Positions 3,603 through 51,476 of a stretch of DNA of 56,265 bases are shown one piece after another (position 1 is the first letter of the stretch; each line of letters starts with the position of its first letter). The stretch lies in the NCBI RefSeq assembly GCF_000227585.1, contig NZ_CAFB01000041.1:1-56265 (forward strand), read 5' to 3'. The notes under the pieces are model-generated. The model was not told where the DNA came from and did not search any database. It saw only the letters and a program-made list of their open reading frames with translations. A program made the translations under genes and the position numbers. This DNA comes from Candidatus Glomeribacter gigasporarum BEG34. Lineage in GTDB: Bacteria > Pseudomonadota > Gammaproteobacteria > Burkholderiales > Burkholderiaceae.

Positions 3603-3892
3603 AGAACCTGTTCACGATCTTACTGCGCGCCCGTGAGCCGGCGTCGGGCGGTGCTCGGAATCCTCACATATGATGTATATGCTCCGGTTCCTGCGCTGCG
3701 CCGCGCAGGGCGGAGCAGGTCTGCCTCGCTTTGCGATGGAGGCGACCCCGGAGCGGCGCACTGCCCGCCGGGTTGCCGCGCGGCCTGTGGCCCGCCTTCA
3801 CGGCCCGATCCCGCTTCGCGGGTCCCTCGGGCAGCGTTCCGGCGGGCCCTCCTTGGCTGACCGGCGCTCGTCACAGATCGTGAACAGGTTCT
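3603..3892. repeat. RepA copy 2 (long form, 290 bp)
   Basis: Ends are the perfect 18-bp pair AGAACCTGTTCACGATCT / AGATCGTGAACAGGTTCT. It is twice as long as copy 1. The extra inner part (about 3700-3850) contains GC-rich inverted segments and, read in reverse, the GCTCCGCC/TCCATCGC module also found inside RepB and RepC. It fills the 304-bp gap between valS and galU, where no gene is visible. The last bases form part of the valS stop codon (TAG on the minus strand, 3891-3893). Confidence 0.9.
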
Positions 3893-6890
3893 AAATCCGC
3901 GCGCGTTGCGCAATCAGCGCATCCCGAACCGCCTCATATTCCGAGGCGCGCTTGCGTTCCTGCCCAACAATCACTTCAGGCGCTTTGGACACAAAGGCTT
4001 CATTGCTGAGTTTGACGCGGCATTTGGAAAGCTCCGCCTCGATGCGCCGGATTTCCTTGTCCAGCCGCGCGCGCTCGGCAACCGGATCAGTGTCTGCTTT
4101 CAGCGCCATCTTCAGCGCGCCGGCGAATGCAACAGGCGCGCCGGACGCGGCTTGATTCAGCGCGCTTTCATCCGCGCAGTGCCTCACATCCGAAAGACGC
4201 GCGAGCGCGCGCATATAGGGCGCGAATGCAGTCAGCAGAGCCTCGTCGCCGCTCGCAAAAAGCGGTGCGCGAGCGCCCGGCGGCAATTGTATCTCGCCTC
4301 TGAGCGTCCGGCATGCCTCAATGGCGGTTTTAAGCTGCGCGACCCATCGCTCGGCGTCCGGATCGATTTTTTCCGGCTGCGCGCGCGGATAGGGCTGCAC
4401 CATAATCGAATCTAGAGCTTTTTTCAGTGGCTTGCCCTGTGTCGCTTCTGCGTTTTCGGTATTCGGGATCGCTGCGGGGTCGCATCCATCGCGCTGCACG
4501 CGACGGAACCTGCTCCGCCCGCAGCGATCCCCATACTGTCTTCGCGCTTGCTCCTTGTGCAAGCTCGTCGCAAAAAGCTCTGGACGCTCTCTACAGCGCC
4601 CCACTAGCGGCGCAACGCTTTGCCATAAGGCTTCCGTGATAAAGGGCATCAGCGGATGCGCCAAGCGCAGCGATGTTTCAAGCGCATGCAGCAAAGTATG
4701 GCGGGTGACGCGCTGCTGCGTCTGTGTTCCCGTTTGTAGTTGCACTTTGGCAAATTCAATATACCAATCGCAGTATTCATCCCAGATAAACTGATAAATC
4801 GACTGTGCAATCAGATCAAAGCGGAAATCGGCAAAGTGTTTTTCAACCGCCGCACTGACTCGTTGCAGCGTGGAGAGTATCCAGCGGTCTGCGCGGGATT
4901 GAGCGTTTTGAATGTCGCGCTCATCTTCAGAATTGCGCTCGTCGTCCGAACAATGTATGAATACAAAGCGCGCCGCATTCCAAAGTTTGTTGCAGAAATT
5001 GCGATATCCCTCGCAGCGCGCCAGATCGAAATTGATATTGCGCCCGGGCGTCGCGAGCGATGCACAAGTGAAGCGCACTGCATCGGCGCCGAACGCCGGG
5101 ATGCCATTGGGGAATGTAGTGCGCGTTTCTTTGGCAATCGCCTCGCTCTGCTTCGGGTTGAATAAACCCTGGGTGCGTTTCTCAACCAGAGCATCGCGCG
5201 CAATCCCGTCGATCAAATCAATCGGATCAAGTGTATTGCCCTTCGACTTGGACATTTTCTGGCCATGCGCATCGCGCACCAGTCCATGCACATAGACAGT
5301 TCCGAAGGGGATGCGGCCCGTAAGGTGCAGGCTCATCATCGCCATCCGAGCCACCCAGAAAAAGAGAATATCGAAACCGGTGATGAGTACCGATGAAGGC
5401 AGAAAGCGCGCCAACTCAGGGGATTCGGAAGGCCAGCCCAGCGATGAAAACGGCGCCAGCGCCGATGAAAACCAGGTATCAAGCACATCTTCATCGCGCC
5501 TTAATGCGCCGGCGTATCCGTTCGCGCGCGCCTGTGCATCCGCTTCACCTTCGCTGCGCGCTACATAAATACGTCCCGCGTCGTCATACCAGGCGGGAAT
5601 TTGATGGCCCCACCATAATTGTCTGGAAATGCACCAATCCTGAAGATTGTCCAGCCATTGGCAGTAAATGCGGGCCCAGTTGTCGGGAACGAACCGAATC
5701 TCGCCGCGGCGCGCCGCGTCCAACGCGACCTCCGCCATTGTTTGGCCCGGATAATGCGCGCCCGCTGGCGCGGGCGTATTGACCGCGACGAACCACTGTT
5801 GAGTCAGCATCGGCTCAATCACCGCGCCGGAACGCTCGCCGCGCGGGACGCTCAGCGTATGCGGTTGCGAGGATTCCAGCAGCCCCTGTGCGCTCAGATC
5901 GGCAAGCACCGCGCGGCGCGCGCTCGCGCAATCCAGTCCGCGATAGCGCGCGGGAGCGTTGTCGTTCAGGGTGGCGTCGGGCCTTAGAATTTCAATGCAC
6001 GGCAGCGCGTGCCGCTGGCCGATCTGGTAATCGTTGAAATCGTGCGCGGGCGTGACTTTAACCGCGCCCGTCCCGAATGTGCGATCTACACAGGCGTCGG
6101 CAATGACCGGAATTTCGCGTCCGCATAACGGCAATTGCACTTTTTTTCCGATCCACCTCTGGTAACGTTCATCTTCAGGATGCACCATGACCGCGACATC
6201 GCCGAGCAACGTTTCCGGTCGTGTTGTTGCCGCCACCAAAGCTGCGCCGCCGCCATCGACGAGCGGATAACGGATATTCCAAAGCATGCCCGCTTCTTCC
6301 TGATTAACCACTTCAAGATCGGATACCGCTGTACCGAGTTTCGGGTCCCAGTTCACTAAGCGCTTGCCGCGATAAATCAAGCCCTGTTCGTACAAGCGCA
6401 CAAAAGCCTCGGTTACCGCTTGCGAGCGCGGCGCATCCATTGTGAAGTATTCGCGGTTCCAGTCAATCGACAGGCCCAGACGCCGCATCTGTTGCGTAAT
6501 CGTCGAACCCGATGCCTTTTTCCACGCCCAGACGCGCTTGATAAACCCCTCGCGACCGAGCGCGCGGCGCGTGAGTTGCTGCACCTCCAGTTGGCGCTCG
6601 ACGATCAGCTGCGTGGCAATGCCGGCATGGTCAGTGCCCGGTATCCAGAGCGTGTTTGCACCACGCATCCGGTGATAGCGCGCCAAACTGTCCATCAGCG
6701 TTTGCTCAAATGCATGCCCGATATGCAATGTCCCCGTGACATTCGGCGGCGGCAGTTGCATCGAAAAATCAGGCGCGCCGCGGGCGAAGGTTGGCCGCGC
6801 ATCACCCCGCTTTTCCCTCTCGCCGCGCCATGCGTTTTCAATGGCATGCGGATCAAAGCTTTTATCGAGCGGCGCATTGGAATGAGTCAT
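3891..6890 (-). CDS. valS: Valine--tRNA ligase carrying an in-frame repeat insertion
   Basis: Class I aminoacyl-tRNA synthetase that charges tRNA-Val. It shows the HIGH motif (residues 56-59), KMSKS (about 545-549), the editing domain between them, and a C-terminal coiled coil. Family members are about 945-960 residues; this one is 999. The excess is explained by RepB element 4415-4580: with its TA target copy it adds exactly 168 bp, so residues 771-826 (from ELFATSL to KKAL) are repeat-encoded, followed by the normal [17 protein letters not shown]. The insertion lies in the anticodon-binding domain, between APLVGR and DSIM. The frame is intact, so an active enzyme with a 56-residue loop is likely, since valS is essential. 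Confidence 0.95.
4415..4580. repeat. RepB copy 1 (166 bp) inside valS, in frame
   Basis: Ends are GAGCTTTTTT on the left and AAAAAGCTC on the right. Both differ from the consensus GAGCATTTT in the same position, so pairing is kept. The left flank is TA; the right is TG, one change from TA. The inside contains a 13-bp perfect inverted repeat (GGATCGCTGCGGG / CCCGCAGCGATCC) and the CATACTGTCTTCGCGC module. Element plus a 2-bp target copy is 168 bp, i.e. 56 codons, with no stop in the valS frame. Confidence 0.88.
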
Positions 6891-12151: not shown

Positions 12152-12568
12152 ATGCTACAACCCAAACGGAGAAAATTCCGCAAAGAACACAAAGGGCGTA
12201 ACACGGGCGTTGCAAGCCGTGGTACGGCAGTGTCCTTTGGCGAATATGGCTTGAAGTCGATTGGCCGCGGCCGTTTAACCTCGCGTCAAATCGAAGCGGC
12301 GCGCCGCGCGATGACTCGCCATATTAAGCGGGGGGGGCGTATCTGGATCCGTATCTTTCCGGATAAGCCGATTTCCCGTAAGCCAGCCGAAGTGAGAATG
12401 GGAAATGGTAAGGGCAACCCAGAGTATTATGTGGCTGAAATCCAGCCCGGAAAAATGTTATATGAAATGGATGGCGTTCAGGAAACGCTGGCGCGCGAGG
12501 CATTCCGCCTGGCGGCGGCAAAGTTGCCTTTAAGAACAGTGTTTATTGCCCGGCAGTTAGGGACTTAG
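12152..12568 (+). CDS. rplP: 50S ribosomal protein L16
   Basis: 138 residues. [17 protein letters not shown] is the normal start, and the [20 protein letters not shown] loop near the A site is present. The stop codon TAG (12566-12568) is made of the TA target plus the first G of RepB copy 2. The right flank of the element (TAACTGG) shows the ancestral stop was TAA, so the insertion left the protein unchanged. Confidence 0.97.
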
Positions 12569-12635
12569 AGCATTTTTCAGCGGCTTGCCCTGTGTCGCTT
12601 CGCGCTCCTTGGGTAATCTCACTGAAAAATGCTCT
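12568..12635. repeat. RepB copy 2 (short form) in the rplP stop codon
   Basis: GAGCATTTTTCAGCGG on the left and CACTGAAAAATGCTC on the right, flanked on both sides by TA (12566-12567 and 12636-12637). It lies between rplP and rpmC, so it is transcribed in the ribosomal mRNA and could form a hairpin just before the rpmC start region. Confidence 0.9.
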
Positions 12636-12650
12636 AACTGGATACGTAAT

Positions 12651-13235: not shown

Positions 13236-13369
13236 GAACCTGTTCACAAATTGTAGCGAGCGGGCAGCAGGCAAGGAGGGCCCGCCGGAACGCTGCCCGA
13301 GGGACCCGCGAAGCGGGATCGGTTTGTTGCGGCGGGCCAAGCCGCGCGGTAGATTCGTGAACAGGTTTT
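13236..13369. repeat. RepA copy 3 (diverged, 134 bp)
   Basis: Ends GAACCTGTTCAC and GTGAACAGGTT. The inner part (AAGGAGGGCCCGCCGG to GAAGCGGGATCG) is the reverse complement of the inner part of RepA copy 2 near 3800-3850, so it lies in the opposite orientation with a deletion. It lies in the untranslated leader between the 13170 promoter and rplN. Confidence 0.8.
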
Positions 13370-13399
13370 TATACCGGTTGGCAGCCGGTCAGCTAGCTA

Positions 13400-13565
13400 G
13401 AGCATTTTTCACTGATTTTTCCTATGTCGCTTCTGCGTTTTCGGCATTCGGGATCGCTTCGGGGTCGCATCCATCGCGCTGCGCGCGACGGAACCTGCTC
13501 CGCCCGCATCGATCCCCATACTGTCTTCGCGTTCGCTCCTCGGGCAAATCGACTGAAAAATGCTC
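13400..13565. repeat. RepB copy 3 (long form, 166 bp)
   Basis: GAGCATTTTTCA on the left, TGAAAAATGCTC on the right, TA on both sides (13398-13399, 13566-13567). It has the same length as the copy inside valS and the same inner modules (GGATCGCTTCGGG...GATCC, ACGGAACCTGCTCCGCC, CATACTGTCTTCGCG). It ends 18 bp before rplN, in its leader. Confidence 0.9.
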
Positions 13566-13585
13566 TAGATTAACCAAACACCTTT

Positions 13586-24438: not shown

Positions 24439-24580
24439 AGCCTGTTCACGATCTGACTGTGCGCCCGTGATCCTGCGTCGGGCGGTGCTCGGAATCCTCA
24501 CATATATCAAATATGCTCCGGTTCCTGCGCTCCGTCCTCCTTGGCTGACAGGCGCTCGTCACAGATCGTGAACAGGCTCT
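24438..24580. repeat. RepA copy 4 (143 bp)
   Basis: Left end AAAGCCTGTTCACGATCT, right end AGATCGTGAACAGGCTCT. Both carry GCCTG in place of ACCTG, a matching change in the two ends. The inside is nearly identical to copy 1 (TCACATATATCAAATATGCT). It fills the gap between the glycosylase gene and accA. Confidence 0.9.
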
Positions 24581-26660: not shown

Positions 26661-26668
26661 AACTTCTA

Positions 26669-26739
26669 GAGCATTTTTCAGCGGCTTGCACGGCGCAGCG
26701 ATGCGCTCGCGAAAGTAGCAATCTCGCTGAAAAACGCTC
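26669..26739. repeat. RepB copy 6 (short form) in the lysC stop codon
   Basis: GAGCATTTTTCAGCG on the left, CGCTGAAAAACGCTC on the right, TA on both sides (26667-26668, 26740-26741). On the minus strand the TA plus G gives the lysC stop TAG. It sits only 8 bp from RepC copy 1, at the junction where tilS and lysC now face each other. Confidence 0.9.
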
Positions 26740-27989
26740 TAGCCTCTTTCCAATTCAAACGCCTTATGCAACGCGCGCACCGCCAGCTCCATATATTTCT
26801 CATCAATCAGCACGGAAATCTTGATTTCAGAGGTTGAAATCATCTGGATATTGATGCCTTCTTCCGCCAATGTGCGGAACATTGTGCGGGCAACGCCTAC
26901 ATGCGAGCGCATGCCGACGCCGATCACGGAGACTTTTGAAACTTGCGGATCGCCGATGACCTGCCGCGCGCCGATCTGCGCTTTGACGGACGCATTCAGG
27001 ATATCCATCGCGCGCGCATAATCGCTGCGCGCAACGGTAAAGGTAAAGTCCGTGCGTCCTTCAACGCTCTGGTTTTGCACAATCATATCGATGTCGATAT
27101 GCGCGCGCGCCACCGGGCCGAGGATTTGGTACGCAATTCCGGGCGTATCGGGTACGCTCAGCACCGCAATACGCGCTTCATCGCGCTGGTGCGCAATGCC
27201 GGACACCACCACTTGTTCCATCGTTTGATCTTCCTCAAAAGTCATCAAGGTGCCCGAACGCATTTCGTCTTCGAGCGGCATTAAGGGGTCGCTCAGACTT
27301 GAGAGCACGCGCGTTTTCACCCGGTATTTGCCGGCGAATTCGACCGAGCGGGTTTGCAGCACTTTCGAGCCCAGGCTCGCCATTTCAAGCATTTCTTCAC
27401 AAGTGATACATTCCAGCCGGCGCGCCTGATCGACGATACGCGGGTCGGCGGTGTACACGCCATCAACATCGGTATAGATCAAACACTCATCCGCCGCGAA
27501 CGCCGCGGCGAGCGCGAGCGCGGAAGTGTCCGAGCCGCCGCGTCCGAGCGTCGTAATATTGTTTGCGTCATCCACGCCCTGAAACCCGGCAATCACCGCA
27601 ATCCGGCCCGCTTCAAGGTCGCGCCGCACGCGCGCGCCGTCGATCTCAATAATGCGCGCTTTACTAAAGGTGCCGTCGGTTTTGATCGGCACTTGCCAGC
27701 CAGCATAACTGCATGCGCAAACGCCCAGTGCTTTCAGCGCCAGACTTAATAAGCCAATGCTGACCTGTTCGCCAGTCGCGGCGATCATATCGAGTTCGCG
27801 CGGTTCGGGCTGGGCGGAGATAGAGAATGCCAGTTCGAGCAGGCGATTCGTCTCGCCGGCCATCGCGGAGGGCACGACCATCATCTGGTGACCTGCCCGA
27901 TGCCATTTGGCAATGCGCCGCGCAACATTCCGAATGCGCTCAACAGAACCCATCGAAGTGCCGCCGTATTTATGAACAATCAGCGCCAT
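26739..27989 (-). CDS. lysC: Aspartate kinase
   Basis: 416 residues from ATG 27989 (MALIVHKYGGTSMGSVERI). First enzyme of the lysine, threonine, methionine and diaminopimelate pathway. The kinase domain (GFQGVDDANNITTLGRGGSD, TDVDGVYTADPRI) is followed by two ACT domains (SKVSVIGVGMRSHVGVA, MISTSEIKISVLI), the usual site of lysine/threonine feedback. In Burkholderia it follows tilS on the same strand; here it is inverted. Its stop TAG is formed by RepB copy 6. A weak TTGATT-like promoter lies near 28060. Confidence 0.96.
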   Translation of the reverse strand: MALIVHKYGGTSMGSVERIRNVARRIAKWHRAGHQMMVVPSAMAGETNRLLELAFSISAQPEPRELDMIAATGEQVSIGLLSLALKALGVCACSYAGWQVPIKTDGTFSKARIIEIDGARVRRDLEAGRIAVIAGFQGVDDANNITTLGRGGSDTSALALAAAFAADECLIYTDVDGVYTADPRIVDQARRLECITCEEMLEMASLGSKVLQTRSVEFAGKYRVKTRVLSSLSDPLMPLEDEMRSGTLMTFEEDQTMEQVVVSGIAHQRDEARIAVLSVPDTPGIAYQILGPVARAHIDIDMIVQNQSVEGRTDFTFTVARSDYARAMDILNASVKAQIGARQVIGDPQVSKVSVIGVGMRSHVGVARTMFRTLAEEGINIQMISTSEIKISVLIDEKYMELAVRALHKAFELERG

Positions 27990-31071: not shown

Positions 31072-31088
31072 AACGCGCAGAGGCTCTA

Positions 31089-31159
31089 GAGCATTTTTCA
31101 GTGAGATTGCATAAGGAGCGAGCGCAAAGCGACGCCGTGCAAGCCACTGAAAAATGCTC
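31089..31159. repeat. RepB copy 7 (71 bp)
   Basis: GAGCATTTTTCAGTG on the left and CACTGAAAAATGCTC on the right pair perfectly over 15 bp, with TA on both sides (31087-31088, 31160-31161). The CAGTG/CACTG pair differs from CAGCG/CGCTG copies, another matched change. It ends 13 bp before the ferredoxin start. Confidence 0.9.
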
Positions 31160-31162
31160 TAA

Positions 31163-36228: not shown

Positions 36229-37188
36229 TCAAGTATCCGTTTTCTTTCTAAATGCTAAGCGGGCGAGCGTATTCAAGCCCAGAATGAAGAGCGTCATCAG
36301 TAGTACGCCGGCCCACGCAAGCTTTTGCCATTGCGCGTAGGGACTCATCGCAAACTGGAAGATCGTCACGGGCAGCGTTGCCATCGGCTGGCGCAGATCG
36401 GCGCTGAAAAAATGGTTGGATAACACTGTGAACAACAGCGGCGCGGTTTCTCCGGAAATGCGCGCAACTGATAGCAAGCATCCGGTCACAATGCCGCTGG
36501 CTGCGGCTTTAAGCGCAATTGCGCCGATCATTTTCCACTTCGGCGCGCCCAGTGCAAACGCGGCTTCGCGCAATGCGTCGGGCACCAGCCTGAGCATATT
36601 TTCGGTAGTGCGCACAATCATCGGGATTTGCAGAATCGCAAGCGCGATTGCGCCCGCCCAGCCGCTGAAATGTTGAAATGGCGCAACAAAGAGCGCGTAC
36701 ACAAACAGACCGATCACAATCGACGGCGCGCTGAGCAGAATATCGTTGATAAAGCGCACGCTTTCCGCCAGCCGGCTGCGGCGCCCATATTCAGCCAGAT
36801 AAACGCTCGCCAGAATACCCAGCGGCGCGCTGATCGCTGTTGCCAGTCCGGTGAGCATCAGACTTCCGGCGATGGCATTGACCAGTCCGCCCCCGTCTGC
36901 ATTTGGAGGCGGCGTGCTTGCGGTCAACAATGACGCAGACCATCCGCTGATCCCCTGTTGGATCGCGGTGATCAATATCCACGCGAGCCATAGCAGGCCG
37001 AATGCCATCGCTGCCCAAGACAGGGCGAGCGCAATGGTATTGCGCCAGCGCCGCGCGCGCACGCGCGCATTAGAGCATTTTTCAGCGGTTTGCACTGTGT
37101 CGCTTCGCGCTCGCCGTATTGCGCATACTGTCTTCGCGCTTGCTCCTTGTGCAAGCTCGCTGCAAAATGCTCTAGGGCCTGTGCTCAT
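36229..37188 (-). CDS. pstA: Phosphate ABC transporter permease PstA with repeat-encoded N-terminal insert
   Basis: 319 residues. Inner-membrane permease with about six membrane segments and the EAA-type loop ([18 protein letters not shown]). The start overlaps the pstC stop (ATGA at 37185-37188). After the first five residues (MSTGP) the frame enters RepB copy 8, which adds exactly 102 bp, i.e. residues 6-39; normal sequence resumes at [11 protein letters not shown]. Removing it joins P5 to N40 with the TA target restored (CCT AAT). The insert precedes the first membrane segment, so it would lie in the cytoplasm and may be harmless. Confidence 0.94.
37073..37172. repeat. RepB copy 8 (100 bp) inside pstA, in frame
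   Basis: GAGCATTTTTCAGCGG on the left, GCTGCAAAATGCTC on the right, TA on both sides (37071-37072, 37173-37174). The inside holds the GCCGTATT-GCGCATACTGTCTTCGCGCTTGC module. Element plus 2-bp target copy is 102 bp (34 codons) without a stop in the pstA frame. Confidence 0.92.
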
Positions 37189-41380: not shown

Positions 41381-41390
41381 GGAGTTTTTA

Positions 41391-41491
41391 GAGCCTTTTT
41401 CAGTGAGATTGCACAAGGAACGAACGCGAAGACAGTATGAATAATACGGCGAGCGTGAAGTTGACGCAGTGCAAGCCGCTGAAAAAGGCTC
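41391..41491. repeat. RepB copy 10 (101 bp) in the ftsH stop codon
   Basis: GAGCCTTTTTCAG on the left and CTGAAAAAGGCTC on the right: both ends carry the same change from GAGCATTTTT, so pairing is kept. TA on both sides (41389-41390, 41492-41493). On the minus strand the ftsH stop is TAG made by TA plus G; the other flank shows the ancestral stop was TAA. Confidence 0.92.
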
Positions 41492-43407
41492 TAGGCGGCT
41501 TGGGTAATGCCCCCGCTCTCAGGTTCCGCAGGCGATGCGCTGTCATTGCTCTGGCGACCGCTTGCGCCGCCGTCCGATGTATCGTCCTCTGGGGGCTTGA
41601 CTTTAGGCGGGCGCGGCGGACGGCCTGACATGATGTCATTGACCTGATAGGCGTCCACGGTTTCCCATTCAAGCAATGTCTTGACCATCGCCTCCACTTT
41701 GTCACGGTTTTTTTCAAGCAGCGCGCGCGCCCGCGCATACTGCGCATCCAGGATAAGGCGGATTTCGGCATCGACTTTTTGCTGCGTCGTTTCGGAGACC
41801 GTCGAGGCCATCCTGCCCAAGAGGGTGTCCTGTTCCGTGTTGACGTACACCATTGTTCCGAGAGAATCCGACATTCCATAACGCGTGACCATATCGCGCG
41901 CCATTTTGGTCGCGCGTTCAAAATCATTGGAAGCGCCGGTTGACATTGAATTCAGGAATAATTCCTCGGCAACGCGGCCGCCAAAAAGAATCGCAATCTC
42001 TTCCAGCATCTTGTCCCGGTACAGATTGACGCGGTCGTATTCGGGCAATTGCCAGGTCAGGCCCAGCGCCGCGCCGCGCGGCATGATTGTGACTTTGTGC
42101 ACGGGGTCCGCATGCGGCAACAGTTTGGCAACCACGGCGTGACCGGATTCGTGATACGCGGTATTGCGCCGCTCTTCTTCGCGCATCAACGCGGACTTGC
42201 GTTCCGGCCCCATATAGATTTTGTCCTTTGCGTCCTCGAATTCATGCATATCGACGACGCGCTTGTTCCTGCGGGCGGCAAATAGCGCCGCTTCATTGAC
42301 CAGATTGGCCAAATCAGCGCCGGAAAATCCAGGCGTGCCGCGCGCGATGACGGACGCATCGACATCGTCTGCAATCGGCACTTTGCGCAGATGGACTTTG
42401 AGAATCTGTTCGCGGCCCCGGATATCCGGCAGGTTGACATGGACGCGCCGGTCGAAACGGCCTGGCCGCAGCAGCGCCTGATCCAGTACATCCGCGCGGT
42501 TGGTGGCGGCAATCACAATCACGCCGGAATTGGGTTCAAAACCGTCCATCTCGACCAGCATCTGATTGAGCGTCTGCTCGCGCTCATCGTTTGCGCCGCC
42601 TGCGCCCGCGCCGCGCTGACGGTGGCGGCCCACCGCATCAATTTCGTCGATAAAAATAATGCACGGCGCATGCTTTTTCGCCTGGCTAAACATATCGCGC
42701 ACGCGCGCCGCGCCGACGCCTACAAACATTTCAACAAAATCCGAGCCTGAAATGCTGAAGAAGGGCACTTTCGCTTCCCCTGCGATGGCGCGCGCCAGCA
42801 ATGTTTTTCCGGTGCCTGGCGGCCCGATCAACAACACGCCGCGCGGAATCTGACCGCCGAGCTTCTGGAATTTCTGAGGATCGCGCAAGAATTCAACCAG
42901 TTCAAAAACTTCTTCTTTTGCTTCATCGCAACCGGCCACCTCGCTAAAATTCACTGCATTATTATTTTCGTCAATCAAGCGCGCGCGCGATTTTCCAAAT
43001 GAGAAAACGCCGCCCCTGCCGCCGCCCTGCATTTGCCGCATGATGTAGAGCAAAAAGATGGGCAACAACAGCACAGGCCCAAAGACATAGAACATTTGCA
43101 AAAGCGGACTTGGCTTTTCTTCAGGCTTGGCGCTGACCGCCACGCCGTATTTCATCAAGTCATCCACCATCCAGGGGGTTCGGGGCGCGGTCAACTGATA
43201 TGGATTGCCCACAGCCGGCGTGACGGTCAGATGATTGCCCTGAATGACGACGCTTTTAATATTTCCGGCGCGCGCCTCATCCATGAATTGTGAATAGGTC
43301 ACGCTTTCCTGGGCTTCAGGTTTTTCAAACTGTTTGAAGAGAAAAAAGAGCGCAAGCGCGAGCACAATCCACACGGCTGCTTTGGAAAAGGCTGAATGAT
43401 TTTGCAT
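41491..43407 (-). CDS. ftsH: ATP-dependent zinc metalloprotease FtsH
   Basis: 638 residues from ATG 43407 ([20 protein letters not shown]). Membrane-bound AAA+ protease that degrades misfolded membrane proteins and regulators. Two N-terminal membrane segments flank a periplasmic domain; Walker A GPPGTGKT, Walker [35 protein letters not shown] and zinc site HESGH follow. An upstream start at 43455 would read into RepB copy 11 and is rejected. The C-terminal tail is rich in Asp, Ser and Pro. Confidence 0.97.
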
Positions 43408-43433
43408 CTGGACGCGCCTCGATAGGGTATCTA

Positions 43434-43500
43434 GAGCATTTTTCAGCGAGCTCATACGGCAAGCGCATCGTTGCGCAGTGCAAGCCGCTGAAAAATGCTC
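43434..43500. repeat. RepB copy 11 (67 bp) in the rlmE stop codon
   Basis: GAGCATTTTTCAGCG on the left and CGCTGAAAAATGCTC on the right, TA on both sides (43432-43433, 43501-43502). On the minus strand it supplies the TAG stop of rlmE; the far flank (TAG) shows the ancestral stop was already TAG. Confidence 0.92.
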
Positions 43501-44129
43501 TAAGCGGATTTTAATGATTTTCCAAGAATAAATACTTCGGATGAGCCGCTGCGCGAGGCTTTAGGCTTGCGCACTGCGACGGACTGAAAGCGCCGACGGA
43601 ATCGCTCGACCATTTGACTATAACCGCTGCCATGAAAGTATTTGGCCAATAGCGCCCCTTGCGCATGCAAGGCGCGCTGTGCAAACTCCAGCGTCAATTC
43701 GCCTAAATGTTCAATACGCGCAGCATCTGCAGCGGCGATGCCTGATAAATTGGGCGCCATATCGGAAAGTACAAGGTCCGCCCTGCGCGCGCCAAGCGCT
43801 TTCTCAAGTTGCGCCCCAACCGCCGCTTCCCGAAAATCGCCCTGGATGAACAGAACGCCCGCAATCTCTTCCATTGGCAGCAGATCAAGCGCAATCATGG
43901 CGCCATTGAGACCGCCGCCAGCGATCCCCCGCGCGAGCCTGTTGCGCACGTATTGACTCCAACTGCCGGGCGCAGCGCCCAAATCGATTACGCGCAATCC
44001 TGGGCGGATCAGTTTGTCCCGCTGATCAATTTCCTGAAGCTTATAGACGGCGCGGGACCGGTACCCTTCGCGCTGCGCGCGTTTGACGTAAGGATCGGAA
44101 AGATGGCCGCGTAGCCAGGCGTGCGTCAC
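43500..44129 (-). CDS. rlmE: 23S rRNA (uridine(2552)-2'-O)-methyltransferase
   Basis: 209 residues from GTG 44129, preceded by GGAG. Methylates U2552 in the A loop of 23S r[26 protein letters not shown] motif [27 protein letters not shown] and FHGSGYS are conserved, with the K-D-K-type catalytic set apparently intact. First gene of the rlmE-ftsH-folP-glmM-pst series on this strand. Confidence 0.95.
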
Positions 44130-51291: not shown

Positions 51292-51476
51292 TATAGCCAA
51301 GCGCATTTAGAGCATTTTTCACTGATTTTCCCTATCTCGCTTCTTTGCTTTCCGTTATTTGGGCTCGCTGCGGGGTCGCCTCCATCGCTTCGCGATGGAG
51401 CCTGCTCCGCCTGCATCAAGCCCTATACTGTCTTCGCGGCTGCGTCCTTGTTTCAAATTAAATGCGCTTGGCTATA
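51292..51476. repeat. RepC/RepB hybrid element (185 bp)
   Basis: Outer ends are RepC (TATAGCCAAGCGCATTTA at 51292-51309, ATTAAATGCGCTTGGCTATA at 51457-51476). At TA 51308-51309 a RepB left end begins (GAGCATTTTTCACTGATTTT), matching copy 3, but no RepB right end follows: the inside passes back to RepC (ATACTGTCTTCGCGGCTGCG). A short perfect hairpin CTCCATCG-CTTCG-CGATGGAG lies inside. RepB seems to have inserted at a TA inside RepC and then recombined. Confidence 0.88.

Follow-up and report, generated by a model that had tools for sequence, protein, structure and literature searches.

How does mobile DNA survive inside an indispensable gene? The question is raised by the valine--tRNA ligase gene (valS) of Candidatus Glomeribacter gigasporarum BEG34, which lies in a stretch of 56,265 nucleotides (contig NZ_CAFB01000041.1; this whole stretch is hereafter the window) belonging to a 1.73-Mb genome in 124 contigs. 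The locus has the following features, in window coordinates:

3891..6890, minus strand: valS, valine--tRNA ligase with insert, 999 aa, recognised by two NCBIfam models
4413..4582, minus strand: long palindromic element in valS, with an intact TA at its left end and TG (a decayed TA) at its right end
4413..4427, plus strand: left terminal inverted repeat of the valS copy (family consensus TAGAGCATTTTTCAG)
4568..4582, minus strand: right terminal inverted repeat of the valS copy, diverged

The insert in valS

The 999-residue product scores above the cut-offs of both NCBIfam valine--tRNA ligase models. The net insertion amounts to 168 bp, or 56 codons, and is read in the valS frame as residues 771–826, in agreement with a sequence-only reading of the locus that had placed a palindromic element in frame within this essential gene. 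That reading had resolved the insert into a 166-bp element plus a 2-bp TA copy. The insert does consist of a 166-bp palindromic element and a 2-bp target copy, and the lengths and the left TA hold; the right end departs from the claim in reading TG.

The valS of a genome of the same genus (G001) encodes an uninterrupted protein of 945 aa that lacks the insert. In a 45-row ValS alignment, the columns of residues 772–818 are empty in all 44 other rows, which are matched protein stretches of 925–964 residues. Both comparisons show that normal ValS sequence resumes on either side of the insert and that the protein is longer than its relatives, as had been proposed. A ValS-query search gave matches in 61 of 61 genomes, and among the matches listed residues 772–818 are uncovered outside the window's own genome; the search for the same segment in the ValS of other genomes, suggested with the earlier reading, was therefore negative within this set. 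No second full valS of the window's genome was among the matches listed, and the named relatives found in this way are Burkholderiales. The alignment with the ValRS of T. thermophilus (1gax) breaks at residues 759 to 838, around the insert, and the insertion site is a length-variable linker.

A model of ValS was built by AlphaFold2 with 45 sequences. The confidence per ten-residue block is 26–34 over residues 771–820, and averages 79–95 in the flanks (residues 661–760 and 831–900). The model is weak overall, with a mean of 67.8 and blocks of the catalytic core down to 31, so that the insert is not alone in its low confidence. The 56-residue loop, which is presumably translated, is predicted to be unstructured, with a well-folded part of the C-terminal region on either side.

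Other repeats were observed in the window. An inverted pair (3788–3891 and 13236–13339; 104 nt, 84% complementary) has one arm that abuts the 3' end of valS. A second repeat family is represented by three copies of 98 nt (1330–1427, 3607–3704 and 24441–24538) that are 84–92% identical. The first of these, at 1330, overlaps an open reading frame (791–1438), presumably one resembling methylated-DNA--cysteine methyltransferase, at its 3' end, and the repeat therefore seems to supply the C-terminus of the product. The core of this second family occurs at five sites in 246,531 bases of the window's genome; 835,518 bases from the valS surroundings of other Burkholderiales contain none.

The element family

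The repeat at 4413–4582 was matched 47 times in the window's genome, at many unrelated loci. A local search of the window and of 38 stretches fetched around the genome matches yielded 40 alignments of at least 140 bp (the long copies), whose identity to the valS copy ranges from 75 to 92%. The terminal repeats TAGAGCATTTTTCAG were counted 171+183 times with up to two mismatches, against 0+2 for the reversed control. At up to one mismatch they occur 139+140 times in the window's genome, 23+15 times in G001, and 0 to 2 times in each of 198 other genomes of the bacterial family; the element family comprises about 140 elements. It is restricted to one genus: of 200 genomes of the bacterial family, two exceed the background, and both belong to that genus. 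A search with the element in 41 genomes, in which at most 20 candidates were scored per genome, returned 23 weaker matches in G001 and nothing in the remaining 39. At E 1e-3 the element had no counterpart in plasmid or phage collections, and a literature search of titles and the beginnings of abstracts, with most subscription journals outside its range, returned no report of this family.

The elements in the fetched stretches fall into size classes of 54, 71, 74/75, 102/104/105 and 164/167/170 bp, with a few odd ones, a series suggestive of palindromes expanding from their centre. The counts per class do not constitute a census because the stretches were picked for containing copies. All 11 copies of exactly 75 bp, which have a net length of 73 bp and would shift the frame, lie outside frames that stay open for 35 aa to either side. 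One form of 230 bp (L071:1526-1755) shows an apparent duplication of the element's centre. The further copies in the window are:

13398..13567, plus strand: second long copy, 170 bp, its main coding frame interrupted by a stop, outside any recognised gene
51308..51475, plus strand: diverged long copy, with a poorly conserved right end
37071..37174, plus strand: copy of the 104-bp class adjoining a transport permease gene (Pfam BPD_transp_1), which we take to be pstA
41389..41493, plus strand: copy of the 105-bp class
12566..12636, plus strand: copy of the 71-bp class
43432..43502, plus strand: copy of the 71-bp class
26667..26741, plus strand: copy of the 75-bp class, net 73 bp, which would shift the frame
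31087..31161, plus strand: copy of the 75-bp class, net 73 bp, which would shift the frame

Target site and mobilisation

TA is present at both ends of 33 of the 40 long copies. With the flanks left and right of each copy read together as one target site, 32 of these 33 lie at YTAR, compared with 13.8% of the 1752 TAs in the window (p=8e-27), and 13 of the 33 sites are CTAG. The left and right target bases vary independently, and YTAR therefore appears to reflect the choice of target and not the sequence of the element itself. The family also displays the remaining characters of MITEs: its members are short, carry terminal inverted repeats, duplicate the target and contain no transposase. Together, the ends and the sharply defined YTAR target suggest a MITE mobilised by a transposase, which would act in trans.

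No autonomous parent with the same ends was found among three transposase families (PF13358, PF13586 and PF01609). The IS630-type transposase PF13358 has no match in the genome. PF13586 has one and PF01609 has six; no pair of TAGAGCATTTTTCAG ends flanks these loci, where only scattered degenerate matches to the element ends appear at up to five mismatches. Perfect inverted ends at two of the PF13586/PF01609 loci were considered as those of the parent and rejected, as they are other sequences. A 1.4-kb terminal-repeat pair on contig C34, considered as a full transposon, was likewise rejected, since it consists of an incomplete short copy and an independent copy of 104 bp. The family thus fits a MITE, except that the parent was not found among the three transposase families searched.

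Copies inside genes

Twelve of the 40 long copies, which were found by DNA similarity and hence blind to frame, occupy in-frame positions within recognisable genes: valS, alaS, carA, tpiA, glmS, sucB, arcC, hemX, yhdP, bamC, cobN and a methyltransferase gene. Such copies would lengthen the proteins by loops of some 55 residues, a behaviour known best from the distantly related Rickettsia. Homology extends to both sides of the insert in 11 of the 12. It is seen by alignment in valS, tpiA, carA, alaS, glmS, arcC and cobN, and PDB alignments of the last six place the insert at a break between aligned stretches. In sucB, hemX and yhdP one profile stretch runs across the insert (for hemX and yhdP the NCBIfam scores are below the model cut-offs and the Pfam scores above), and in bamC separate Pfam stretches cover positions 50–188 before the insert and 223–320 after it. 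The methyltransferase is matched only upstream of the insert, with nothing matched downstream.

These 12 derive from 17 long copies with an open frame of at least 35 aa on both sides, five of which were set aside since no gene match extended across the copy. Three of the five (L053, L055 and L057) have no Pfam match, a fourth (L056) has a match that lies wholly downstream, and the fifth (L070) was dropped because the copy lies at the gatB 3' end on the other strand. Copies that read into the starts of three genes, presumably hda, rmlA and mlaF, were left uncounted, a position upstream of the genes being the simpler reading.

Terminal fusions were excluded from the frame test, namely those at the N-terminus (purA, a BON-domain gene and lpdA of G001) and at the C-terminus (gatB, pyrC and a threonylcarbamoyl-AMP synthase gene). 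The N-terminal in-frame copies of purA and the BON-domain gene, both in the window's genome, use the favoured frame described below. In gatB (L070:1499-3169) and pyrC (L232:430-1626) a copy in the favoured frame follows a complete protein, the profile reaching positions 474/475 and 340/341, and the frame closes at the very 3' end with a stop that lies in the element; both genes seem to have gained C-terminal tails that end within the element copy. Genes found via frame- or size-biased routes were also excluded: rsmB, where the match downstream of a long copy is firm and that upstream very weak; mutS, where a 104-bp copy lies at an alignment break; a truncated bamB copy; and a response-regulator gene, where a 71-bp copy lies 3' of the sole matched domain.

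Three further arrangements were observed. The dihydrolipoyl dehydrogenase gene of G001 (lpdA, L082:202-1737) has its own in-frame copy just past the first codons, in the favoured frame. The threonylcarbamoyl-AMP synthase gene (L228:386-1684) is fused in frame with a copy at its C-terminus. At L080:1151-3010, which encodes 4Fe-4S domains (Fer4_5), the frame crosses adjacent long and 104-bp copies at the gene start.

Strand, frame and coding constraint

Reading follows the same element strand in all 12 in-gene copies (two-sided P 4.9e-4). Ten are in minus-strand phase 1, two (cobN and the methyltransferase) in minus-strand phase 2, and none in a plus frame. With equal strands and phases as the null, the probability of at least 10 of 12 in the favoured frame is 3.8e-5, and four times this value is fairer because the frame was named after the fact. 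The five dropped copies are in minus-1 twice, minus-2 once and plus-2 twice, and with these included the favoured frame accounts for 12 of 17 copies (P 1.0e-4).

Any YTAR placed in codon phase 0 would include a stop codon, which leaves phases 1 and 2 for coding sites. The 12 host genes have, within their open frames, 35 YTAR sites in phase 1, 35 in phase 2 and one in phase 0; the last is probably upstream of the start codon, since frames were taken from stop to stop. The net length is divisible by three in 36 of the 40 long copies, which reflects few ancestral length changes and not 36 events. In one copy, the mean hydropathy is -1.33 and -0.88 for the used frames, and +0.21 and -0.11 for the unused frames, which have four cysteines each. 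Four open frames are present in 18 of 36 real copies, in 728 of 5000 random perfect palindromes and in 23 of 5000 plain shuffles. The palindrome control indicates that palindromy by itself accounts for part of this feature, which makes four open frames less special.

Private substitutions were counted in 37 of the 40 copies, with three irregular ones left out. At codon positions 1, 2 and 3 they number 3, 4 and 6 in the in-gene phase-1 copies, and 11, 18 and 5 outside genes. Third-position changes thus make up 6 of 13 in the former and 5 of 34 in the latter (p=0.049), a marginal signal that hints at coding constraint.

Age of the insertions

The orthologous sites of valS, alaS and carA are empty in G001, that is, in 3 of the 3 testable cases. 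The tpiA search in G001 matched only element copies, and hence was of no use for the empty-site comparison. The two parts of tpiA adjoin without insert in two other genomes (G008 and G020), and only the part after the insert was among the matches listed in two more (G002, with one TGA, and G012). The insertions are young, and the family has spread recently through the genome.

Origin and retention of the inserts

We consider it highly probable that the valS insert belongs to a genus-restricted family of MITE-like palindromes that enter YTAR sites, can be read through genes and are kept by selection in the most hydrophilic frame. A trans-acting transposase would move a small nested palindrome into YTAR sites, with duplication of the TA. 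The long form is mostly open in phases 1 and 2 on both strands, with a net length that is usually a multiple of three, so that a copy landing in a gene can be read straight through. Selection would then keep mainly those copies whose reading frame is the most hydrophilic one and which lie in domain linkers or where homologues show a gap. The pattern of frames and sites was observed in the copies, and we infer that selection accounts for their retention. The outcome in ValS would be an added 56-residue loop in the C-terminal region, predicted to be unstructured. More tentatively, a layout that genes can tolerate (a target that rules out the fatal codon phase, triplet net length, permitted frames mostly free of stops, and a hydrophilic product) may now be adding a closely similar disordered loop to the essential proteins of this small-genome member of the Burkholderiales.

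The element might instead be excised from the RNA or the protein, like an intron or an intein, leaving a normal cellular ValS. Precise removal would restore the host genes, and the gene-strand RNA of the element folds unusually well (-86.8 kcal/mol, z -8.1), a strong fold that may burden translation. Excision, however, needs neither an open frame nor a triplet length nor a preferred strand and frame, all of which were observed, and the element ends resemble those of DNA transposition. Rfam has no match in the window at gathering thresholds, and the stop-bearing copies of gatB and pyrC stand at the very ends of these genes, where removal is unneeded. Excision is therefore a very unlikely account of the inserts.

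It is also unlikely that the inserts are kept for their usefulness, either as a functional peptide or as an mRNA hairpin that tunes translation. A closely similar peptide does occur in many central enzymes, and the third-position excess of private changes in genes (p=0.049) could be read in this sense. The insertions are, however, young, scattered and absent from the tested G001 orthologues; the host genes share no one pathway, and the insert is predicted to be disordered in ValS. Loss of harmful insertions alone gives the same pattern. That the 168 bp were already part of ValS in an ancestor and lost elsewhere, or result from faulty assembly, has a negligible probability, even for a draft genome in 124 contigs. 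The same element recurs in unrelated genes and elsewhere, the segment is missing from 44 of 44 homologues and from G001, and G001 carries related elements at other sites. An assembly error had been named at the outset as a possible flaw; besides the related elements in G001, the end-repeat counts against the reversed control and the many unrelated loci speak against it.

Comparison with known systems

IS630 prefers CTAG as its target. The present family resembles MITEs derived from the IS630/Tc1-mariner group in its terminal inverted repeats, in the TA duplication at a TA target and in the lack of a transposase inside, and has CTAG at 13 of 33 sites; it differs from this group in that no PF13358 transposase was found in the genome. 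The RU-1, RU-2 and RU-3 elements of enterobacteria are described as MITE-like units of 103–168 bp that provide open frames within annotated genes (PMC2759123). Compared by description, the family reported here has many central enzymes as hosts, one strand and a preferred frame. Palindromic repeats in protein genes are also described for the palindromic amphipathic repeat coding sequence (PMC2996958) and for the Nematomorpha (PMC6649704); by these descriptions the former shows a tandem pattern and the latter is mitochondrial, unlike the present family.

The closest likeness proposed by the sequence-only reading was to the Rickettsia palindromic elements (RPEs), and as a mode of working it is borne out by the many host genes, the one strand and the one preferred frame. 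Its view that the repeat is unrelated to the RPEs is plausible; at gathering thresholds Rfam has no match in the window. RPE-1 takes a single preferred strand and frame in most of its host genes; here, one frame is used by 10 of 12 copies and one strand by 12 of 12. As with RPEs, and RPE-1 to RPE-3 especially, in-frame copies occur in otherwise intact protein genes. RPEs are described as palindromes of 100–150 bp that are present in many copies, often reside in genes with the frame preserved and lie in exposed regions in the models shown (PMC3767692, PMC10969869), and each rickettsial orthologue is described as carrying the insert at the same locus (PMC3767692). By contrast, the orthologous valS, alaS and carA sites are empty in G001, the present elements show a TA duplication and a YTAR target, and the host belongs to a distant lineage, the Burkholderiales, rather than to Rickettsia or Wolbachia.

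In-frame fusions by single MITEs are held to be not unusual, and for fusion at high frequency the same passage names only Rickettsia, the same course being conceivable in other prokaryotes (PMC10969869). Here, in-frame insertion is frequent in a lineage distant from Rickettsia, follows a readable target rule and is still young, which makes the old question of how mobile DNA survives inside indispensable genes testable. If our reading is correct, filled and empty versions of one enzyme could be compared within one genus, and it could be tested whether proteins gain from such loops or merely bear them. Because two RPE features, the lineage and the shared sites, are not found here, the family is not classed as an RPE; by analogy it may be called RPE-like in its mode of working, a likeness that leaves sequence kinship to the RPEs aside.
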